Shown piece by piece: positions 28,090-30,401 of a stretch of DNA of 38,687 nucleotides. Where the stretch lies: positions 1 through 38,687 of the forward strand of contig VBEO01000005.1 in assembly GCA_005881825.1 (NCBI GenBank), given 5' to 3'. The stretch is from Chloroflexota bacterium (GTDB lineage: Bacteria; Chloroflexota; Dormibacteria; Dormibacterales; Dormibacteraceae). Numbering within the stretch: the stretch's first letter is position 1; the number at the start of each line of letters is the position of its first letter. The position numbers and the translations under genes were made by a program. The notes below the pieces were generated by a model. That model had not been told where the DNA came from, did not search any database, and was given only the letters and a program-made list of their open reading frames with translations.

Positions 28090-28106
28090 GGGACGGCCTT
28101 TGGCCG

Positions 28107-28398
28107 GCGTAGGGGCGAGGGCTTGCCTCGCCCGGGAGGGGCGAGCCCCTCCCCTACGGGTCAGGGCGTAGGGGCGAGGCTTGCCTCGCCCGGGAGGGGC
28201 AAGCCCCTCCCTTGCGGTCAGGGCGTAGGGGCGAGGCTCGCCTCGCCCTGGGAGGGGCAAGCCCCTCCCCTACGGGTCAGGGGCGTAGGGGCGAGGCCTG
28301 CCTCGCCCGGGAGGGGCAAGCCCCTCCCCTACGGGTCAGAGCGTAGGGGCGAGGCTTGCCTCGCCCGGGAGGGGCAAGCCCCTCCCCTACGGGTCAGG
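28107..28398. repeat. Five tandem copies of a ~58-bp palindromic repeat
   Basis: Units start at 28107, 28166, 28223, 28283 and 28341 (57-60 bp each). Each unit has an outer stem GTAGGGG/CCCCTAC enclosing two hairpins, GGCGAGGC-TT-GCCTCGCC and GGGAGGGGC-AA-GCCCCTCCC, then a GGTCAGG spacer; copies differ by a few substitutions, some compensatory. The array fills the gap between the Lrp gene and nuoA, and the Lrp stop codon (28394-28396) lies inside the last unit. No spacers, so not CRISPR. It could act as a transcription barrier between two same-strand units. Confidence 0.9.
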
Positions 28399-28903
28399 CG
28401 ACGTGGTCGCGGCCGGGCGCAGGGGGTGCTCCCTCCACCAATTCCCGCGTCACCACCTTGGACGGCACCGGCGTGGACAGGATCATGGCCGTGATGGTGT
28501 CGCCCGAGTGGGGGGCCATCCGGTTCAGCAGGTCCTCCAGGTGCTCCATCGACCGCACCGCCACCCGGACGATGTAGCTGTCCGTGCCGGTGACCCGCTG
28601 CGCTTCCAGGACCTCGTCGACGTCCTCCAGGCGGCGAGCGTAGTTGGTGCACTCGGCGGCGTTGCTGGTCGTGATCCGCACCATCGCCTGCATGGGCAGG
28701 CCGAGGGCGGCCAGGTCGAGTTCGGCGTGGTAGCCGCGCAGGACGCCCGCATCCTCCAGCCGACGGACCCGCTCGGCGACCGCCGGCGGGCTCAGATTTA
28801 CCCGCCTTCCAAGCTCGGCGAAGGTCATCCGAGCGTCCTCCTGGAGTGCCTCCAGGAGACCCCAGTCGGTTGGGTCGAGATTCGGCGTTGAAACAAAGGC
28901 CAT
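28394..28903 (-). CDS. Lrp/AsnC family transcriptional regulator
   Basis: 169 aa. N-terminal winged helix-turn-helix (DWGLLEALQEDARMTFAELG, RRVNLSPPAVAERVRRLEDA, residues about 10-60), then the RAM/AsnC_trans_reg ligand and oligomerisation domain (AMVRITTSNAAECTNYARRL, VTGTDSYIVRVAVRSMEHLE). ATG 28903 is preferred over an upstream TTG because a -10-like TAAGAT ends 7 nt before it. The effector is probably an amino acid, but nothing local tells which. The last residues (DHVA) are encoded in the repeat array. Confidence 0.9.
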   Translation of the reverse strand: MAFVSTPNLDPTDWGLLEALQEDARMTFAELGRRVNLSPPAVAERVRRLEDAGVLRGYHAELDLAALGLPMQAMVRITTSNAAECTNYARRLEDVDEVLEAQRVTGTDSYIVRVAVRSMEHLEDLLNRMAPHSGDTITAMILSTPVPSKVVTRELVEGAPPAPGRDHVA

Positions 28904-28995: not shown

Positions 28996-29130
28996 ATGGA
29001 AGGCATCATCTTCGTGATCGGAATGGCCGCTCTCGGGGTGGCTTCCCAGCTCTGGGGAGCCGACACCCGGCAAGGGCTGGGCGACACTCGCACGGACCGC
29101 GGCGAGCGCTGGTTTATCGAGCAGCCTTAA
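28996..29130 (+). CDS. Small 44-aa membrane-anchored protein, unknown
   Basis: Reads MEGIIFVIGMAALGVASQLW then a polar tail GADTRQGLGDTRTDRGERW and FIEQP. One N-terminal membrane helix (or signal anchor) followed by a charged cytoplasmic or outer segment. Coding support: ATG preceded by a leaderless -10, clean ORF ending TAA, soluble-like charged tail without low-complexity sequence. The stop overlaps the 3' end of the convergent OsmC-like gene by 17 bp. No family recognised. Confidence 0.55.
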   Translation: MEGIIFVIGMAALGVASQLWGADTRQGLGDTRTDRGERWFIEQP

Positions 29131-29563
29131 GGTCTCGGCGCTTGACGTCGATCCGCGTTCCGTGGGTCAGGGTTGCGTCGACGGGACAGTACTTGTTGCA
29201 GGCCTGATCGAGGGCATCGTCGACCACCTTGCCCTCGATCTCGCCGTCCCACTCGACCGCAAACGTGATCCGGACCTGCGTGAAGGCGTGCGGCCAGTCG
29301 GGCTGCTGATCGCCCTCCACCTCGACCTGGAGTGAGCGGAGGGGCTGCTTGTACTTGCGGAGCAGCAGCACCGCGTTCACGCCGGTGCAGGCTCCCAGGG
29401 CACCCAGGAGCATCTCGGTGGGACGCATCCCGAGGTCGTCACCGAAGGCCGGCGGCTCGTCGACCATCGCCGTGTGGCCGGAGGCGCCCTGCACCTCGAA
29501 GGTCGTGATCGGCGTCCCATTGCTGCGCGTTTTCCCCTGCCAGACCGCGGTCACCCGTTGCAC
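29114..29563 (-). CDS. OsmC/Ohr family protein
   Basis: 149 aa. OsmC-like proteins are cytoplasmic thiol peroxidases acting on organic hydroperoxides. The two redox Cys are in LGALGACTGVNAVLLLRKY (about residue 60) and NKYCPVDATLTHG (about 125). GMRPTEMLLGALG is the usual run before the first Cys. GTG 29563 follows TACGAT by 6 nt. Divergent from trmI through a shared promoter core. OsmC rather than Ohr is likely from the CPV context, but the subgroup is not certain. Confidence 0.87.
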   Translation of the reverse strand: MQRVTAVWQGKTRSNGTPITTFEVQGASGHTAMVDEPPAFGDDLGMRPTEMLLGALGACTGVNAVLLLRKYKQPLRSLQVEVEGDQQPDWPHAFTQVRITFAVEWDGEIEGKVVDDALDQACNKYCPVDATLTHGTRIDVKRRDLKAAR

Positions 29564-29569
29564 CGGCCG

Positions 29570-29579
29570 ATCGTAGACT
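29570..29579. promoter_or_regulatory. Symmetric divergent promoter core ATCGTAGACT
   Basis: The plus strand -10 TAGACT (29574-29579) and minus strand -10 TACGAT (29575-29570) share one TA. Each is exactly 6 nt from its start codon, GTG 29586 (trmI) and GTG 29563 (OsmC-like), so a 22-bp gap serves two leaderless genes. Confidence 0.6.
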
Positions 29580-29585
29580 GCCGGC

Positions 29586-30401
29586 GTGGCCGAGGCGCTG
29601 GCCGAGGGTGACCTGGTCCTCCTCCACGACCGCTCCGGCCGCCGCTACCGGGTGGTCCTGAAAGCCGGCGAGAAAACCTCTCTGCACACCGGGACGGTCG
29701 CGCACGACGACCTGTTGGGGAAACCGGACGGCAGCCTGGTGACCACCGCGCGAGGCGCCATCCTGCTCGCCCTGCGCCCGACGTTTGCCGAGTCGATCAC
29801 GGAGCGGCGCCGGCAGGCTCAGCCCATCTATCCCAAGGACCTGGGCGCGATCCTGGTCTTCGCCGATCTCTTCCCGGGAGCCCGGGTCCTGGAGGCCGGC
29901 ACCGGCACCGGCGCGCTCACCATCGCCGCCCTGCGCGCGGTGGGGAATGGGGGGCGCGTGGTCTCGATCGAAGCGCGGGAAGAGTTCCTGGACGCCGCCC
30001 GACAGGCGATCGCGGACGCGTTCCAGGGTTTGCCGGCAAACCTCGAGCTCAGGACCGGCGACGCCTACCAGGACCCCGGCGAGCGTGAGCTCGACCGCGT
30101 GCTGCTCGACCTCCCGGAGCCCTGGCAGGCGGTGCCCTGGGTGCGCGAGGCGCTGGTCCCCGGCGGCATCGTATTCGCCCACTGCCCCAACGTGAGCCAG
30201 GTCCAGCGCTTCGGCGAGGCGCTGCGTGAGGCCGGCGGCTTCGGGCTGGTGGAGACGATGGAGCTCCTGCAGCGGGGTTGGACCATCCGCGGGCGCTCGC
30301 TGCGTCCCGCCCACCGCATGGTGGCGCACACCGGATTCCTGACCTTCGCTCGCCGCCTGGCCGGCGATCGCTTCTTCGAGGCAGAGGGAGAGGGCTTCTA
30401 G
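29586..30401 (+). CDS. trmI: tRNA (adenine-58-N1)-methyltransferase TrmI
   Basis: 271 aa. Makes m1A58 in the T loop of tRNA with SAM. N-terminal beta domain (LAEGDLVLLHDRSGRRYRVV) then Rossmann methyltransferase: RRRQAQPIYPKDLGAILVFA, SAM loop VLEAGTGTGALT, acidic end of beta-2 (VVSIEAREEF), DRVLLDLPEPWQAVP (catalytic DxPEPW) and the C-terminal RPAHRMVAHTGFLTFARR. Full length, GTG start, leaderless. Confidence 0.94.
   Translation: MAEALAEGDLVLLHDRSGRRYRVVLKAGEKTSLHTGTVAHDDLLGKPDGSLVTTARGAILLALRPTFAESITERRRQAQPIYPKDLGAILVFADLFPGARVLEAGTGTGALTIAALRAVGNGGRVVSIEAREEFLDAARQAIADAFQGLPANLELRTGDAYQDPGERELDRVLLDLPEPWQAVPWVREALVPGGIVFAHCPNVSQVQRFGEALREAGGFGLVETMELLQRGWTIRGRSLRPAHRMVAHTGFLTFARRLAGDRFFEAEGEGF

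Follow-up and report, generated by a model that had tools for sequence, protein, structure and literature searches.

In the genome of an uncultured soil bacterium of Candidatus Dormibacterota, a group of Chloroflexi AD3-like MAGs, an osmC-like gene and a trmI-like gene are divergent neighbours. The window, which is the whole stretch of 38,687 nucleotides analysed here, leaves only 22 bp between their start codons. This raises the question of how two genes can be transcribed from so short a gap. It is likely that the gap is a bidirectional promoter without -35 elements, belonging to the class with 23 bp between the start sites, that trmI obtained its -10 hexamer TAGACT through the loss of a methyltransferase gene (MT), and that the two directions have little effect on each other. 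The features concerned are the following:

29114 to 29563, minus strand: osmC-like gene with a GTG start codon at 29563 (PF02566 OsmC, E 4e-18)
29564 to 29585, no strand assigned: 22-bp intergenic region, a putative overlapping promoter core, delimited by its sequence and by geometry counts
29570 to 29575, minus strand: TACGAT, -10 hexamer of the putative osmC promoter, 6 nt from the GTG at 29563
29574 to 29579, plus strand: TAGACT, -10 hexamer of the putative trmI promoter, 6 nt from the GTG at 29586
29586 to 30401, plus strand: trmI-like tRNA (m1A58-type) methyltransferase gene with a GTG start codon at 29586 (GCD14, E 1.4e-26; TrmI-like_N, E 2.8e-14)

Positions 29561-29588 read CAC CGGCCG ATCGTAGACT GCCGGC GTG. 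The TA at 29574-29575 is common to TAGACT on the plus strand and TACGAT on the minus strand, and the shared TA, the 6 nt to each GTG and the 22-bp gap, all of which had been pointed out in the preliminary description, are borne out by the sequence. The core had also been called a symmetric 10-bp element; this holds for the A...TA...T skeleton, whereas the 10-mer itself is no palindrome. From this geometry, the predicted start sites of osmC and trmI lie 23 bp apart. Both start codons are supported by the conservation of aligned starts in relatives: the osmC GTG aligns with ATG or GTG starts, and the trmI GTG is located at the same residue as a GTG in several genomes. In several relatives the TG of the trmI GTG overlaps the TGA stop codon of a preceding methyltransferase gene.

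The hexamers were compared with the signals before other genes of the window genome (G000). In about 1.07 Mb of this genome, 952 starts were predicted by a simple purpose-built gene finder, and TANNNT was found before them 23 times at 6 nt, 40 times at 7 nt, 28 times at 8 nt and 24 times at 9 nt. With a background of 2.2 per position in the same sequence, this corresponds to an approximately tenfold or higher enrichment at 6-9 nt, and the peak was seen likewise in three further genomes (G010, G006 and G016). TAGACT is the most frequent hexamer at 6-9 nt in the window genome (n = 13) and TACGAT the fourth (n = 5). A -35 signal was not found across 178 leaderless promoters. At the locus itself, sequences 15-19 bp upstream of the -10 hexamers showed at most three of six matches to TTGACA at any spacing and in both directions; a canonical sigma-70 promoter with a -35 element is not present in the gap, and no Shine-Dalgarno (SD) sequence was found within its 22 bp. 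On both sides, the distance of the -10 hexamer from the start codon falls within the roughly 6-9 nt of the leaderless TANNNT type, which likewise has no SD sequence. Promoters of this -10-only type have been described for high-GC bacteria (PMC3160421) and in M. tuberculosis (PMC3898074), and the signal of the window genome matches this type.

RNA polymerase would be expected to recognise the -10 core in either orientation. TANNNT on each strand, with the TA in common, would direct one transcript each way, and each transcript would begin at the GTG or no more than two bases from it, so that osmC and trmI would both be expressed from leaderless mRNAs.

Beside this locus, further features were observed in the window. 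A 44-codon open reading frame, MEGIIFVIGMAALGVASQLWGADTRQGLGDTRTDRGERWFIEQP, is located at 28996-29130 on the plus strand. TATTCT precedes its ATG by 6 nt, and it terminates within the 3' end of osmC, which lies on the opposite strand. Similar reading frames were detected in nine other genomes of the family (53% identity in G013), and it probably encodes an unannotated leaderless small protein. Divergent from it, across a 92-bp gap, lies an Lrp/AsnC-type regulator gene (28394-28903, minus strand) with the leaderless-type -10 hexamer TAAGAT 7 nt before its ATG. At 28106-28398, between a nuoA-like gene and the Lrp-like gene, a G+C-rich and partly self-complementary unit of 58 bp is repeated five times in tandem.

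The pairing of osmC with trmI is specific to the window genome. The two genes are not adjacent in most of the relatives where both were visible; a class I methyltransferase gene precedes and overlaps trmI, osmC adjoins MT or other genes, and a DedA-like gene is inserted between osmC and MT in some genomes. MT was at first taken for a RecB-like exonuclease gene. A domain search ruled this out and identified class I SAM methyltransferase domains (Methyltransf_11/UbiE-like). Of 33 family loci, 23 have TANNNT 5-8 nt and 17 have TAGACT 6-8 nt before the start codon of MT, which opens the trmI operon; the backgrounds before RTG codons are 0.5% and 0.04%, respectively. By this comparison of orthologous loci, TAGACT at 6-8 nt before MT is a conserved putative leaderless promoter of the trmI operon in the relatives.

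In the window genome, MT was not found at E ≤ 1e-20. In G013 (L017, contig C93), an N-terminal MT stub of 26 amino acids, MGEDVQARFEQVAENHARSAFYADST, remains between osmC and trmI; an SD-like AGGAGG follows the stub ahead of trmI. In G011, where MT does not precede trmI either, trmI has a TACAGT of its own at 7 nt from the GTG. Deletion of MT in the lineage of the window genome would have placed trmI directly on the former TAGACT promoter of the operon, and the gap to the leaderless promoter of osmC itself would have shrunk until both -10 hexamers overlapped. The ancestral operon promoter is most likely the source of TAGACT, which is the parsimonious reading of these loci, although a clear TANNNT was not found at this junction in the closest MT-bearing relatives (G012, G005, G009 and G019).

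On the other side of the gap, a leaderless-type -10 hexamer precedes osmC in 17 of 25 loci, and osmC of G013 possesses the same TACGAT at the same spacing of 6 nt. Judged from these loci, the putative leaderless -10 hexamer of osmC is also ancestral. The arrangement of the two hexamers relative to each other is variable. In G008 and G002 two -10 hexamers are located side by side, 8 bp apart and without overlap, and in G036 the gap between osmC and MT contains a shared TA in the identical 6+10+6 arrangement with other middle bases. Since both G036 and the window genome have the overlap, it is present at this junction in at least two separate branches. A shared-TA core between MT and a different gene was found in G018, G026 and G063. 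Conservation in relatives, which the preliminary description had proposed as a check, thus applies to the -10 hexamers of osmC and of the trmI operon, but not to the gene pairing, and the overlap of the hexamers is not constant. The claim that one core drives two leaderless genes gains from the genome-wide signal, from TAGACT in the relatives and from the osmC loci, all of which are comparative sequence evidence.

The shared-TA geometry was evaluated against several expectations. Three of 31 short divergent gaps (10-35 bp), sampled in four genomes of the family, showed this geometry, all of them in the window genome; shuffling of the short gaps gave an expectation of 0.073 cases and a maximum of 2 in 2000 shuffles. 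A count of the pattern over the whole window genome yielded 8 matches versus 1 for a reversed-pattern control, in which AT replaces TA. AT is usually the commoner step in such genomes, and the control is therefore probably conservative. Seven of the 8 matches are flanked on both sides by divergent open reading frames with good coding scores (luciferase-like/SDR, catalase/DUF2752, SDR/DAO oxidase, peptidase M20/S58, TfoX_N/HisS, MnmA/unknown and osmC/trmI). In the six further pairs the A...TA...T core recurs, with both start codons 6-7 nt away from it, and the genes and middle bases differ from those of osmC/trmI; no functional theme common to the seven pairs was found. In 41 genomes of the family, the geometry occurred 188 times versus 116 times for the control (Wilcoxon p 1.4e-4), a modest enrichment of 1.6-fold. 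The 18-bp geometry (TANNNTA), which was considered as an alternative, was not enriched in the family genomes (95 versus 111 for the control). Outside the family, a scan of the phylum for the TAGNCT form of the core gave counts not visibly above the control, and for this reason nothing is claimed beyond the family. The shared-TA geometry at osmC/trmI is not due to chance.

Another shared-TA divergent leaderless core, AGGTTACGAT, was observed between genes for a DUF255 thioredoxin-like protein and an M20 peptidase (L190, G023:C91:9771-9799; L206, G028). Matching sites occur in many family genomes. This core is a conserved example and lends itself more readily to functional work than the core between osmC and trmI.

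Other explanations of the gap have to be considered. If only one direction were served by a true promoter, the other hexamer would be a chance TANNNT and its gene would be transcribed from a promoter that lies within the adjacent gene. TANNNT is indeed a short motif, and the expected leaderless-type -10 hexamer is absent at 8 of the 25 osmC loci and at 10 of the 33 MT genes. However, a hexamer of this kind stands 5-8 nt before so few RTG codons in the background that its presence at the favoured distance on both sides, each time with conserved counterparts in relatives, makes this explanation improbable, and neither a -35 element nor an SD sequence for a conventional alternative was seen in the gap. 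That the overlapping AT-containing positions have no promoter function at all is more improbable still, to the point of being hardly credible. About one control match is expected per genome of this size, which would allow for an isolated coincidence, but the window genome contains eight, seven of them between open reading frames, and TAGACT is conserved in the relatives.

The preliminary description had gone further and suggested that RNA polymerase may choose one side at a time and thereby link osmC and trmI inversely, the gap leaving no room for regulators. The latter statement is too strong, because the beginning of each coding sequence could itself be covered by a regulator. Two polymerases probably cannot occupy both sides of the core together, and the steric considerations published for bidirectional promoters (PMC12825309) would lead one to expect that only one orientation is occupied at any moment. 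Interference between the directions has been published once one of them was strongly activated (PMC12825309), and this, together with the overlap of the two hexamers, would speak for a regulatory switch. On the other hand, at all five bidirectional promoters tested in E. coli the basal activity did not suffice for competition (PMC12825309), and at ordinary weak activity exclusion would have little effect on either gene. The divergent leaderless pair prpD/Rv1129c of M. tuberculosis is induced together (PMC3898074). Neither the pairing of osmC with trmI nor the overlap of their hexamers is constant among relatives, as the separate hexamers of G008 and G002 illustrate, and the other shared-core pairs of the window genome encode unrelated enzymes. 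Inverse coupling is not accepted as a function of the locus, since osmC and trmI are paired in this genome alone and the hexamers do not always overlap in relatives; a role as a regulatory device appears unlikely.

A bidirectional promoter with largely independent directions is thus preferred, and the gap probably belongs to a bacterial promoter type that is already known, with its activity predicted from the sequence. Like the bidirectional promoters of bacteria and archaea described by Warman, Grainger and colleagues (PMC12825309, PMC10268837), it is short, has -10 elements on both strands with TANNNT core positions, and is located between mRNA genes, as is usual for them. The start sites of such promoters are preferentially separated by 18, 10 or 23 bp (PMC12825309), and the shared TA between osmC and trmI, with a predicted distance of 23 bp, corresponds to one of these offsets. 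The published promoters are commonest at 18 bp, whereas the family studied here is enriched for the 23-bp and not for the 18-bp class. In contrast to the published examples, two leaderless transcripts are predicted, the core makes up the whole intergenic region, and the start sites are predicted ones. In the available parts of PMC3898074 and PMC3160421, the leaderless promoters of high-GC bacteria, M. tuberculosis among them, likewise carry TANNNT a few nt before GTG or ATG and lack a -35 element; a -10 core shared by two leaderless genes is not described in those parts. For prpD/Rv1129c, start sites have been mapped (PMC3898074), whereas those of osmC and trmI are predicted.

It is conceivable, although rather doubtful, that Ca. 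Dormibacterota use a distinct form of leaderless bidirectional promoter, which favours a shared TA at 23 bp rather than the 18-bp geometry and manages without a -35 element or untranslated DNA. It would constitute a minimal cassette of 22-25 bp, employed repeatedly for gene pairs unrelated to each other and passed on when a neighbouring gene is deleted. The locus would illustrate such promoter inheritance, in which the loss of a gene brings the next one in the operon directly under the former leaderless promoter. With two genes, 22 bp and no untranslated leader, it indicates how little DNA a working divergent regulatory region may need, and the phylum may provide natural examples for studying overlapping -10 elements without activators or -35 elements.
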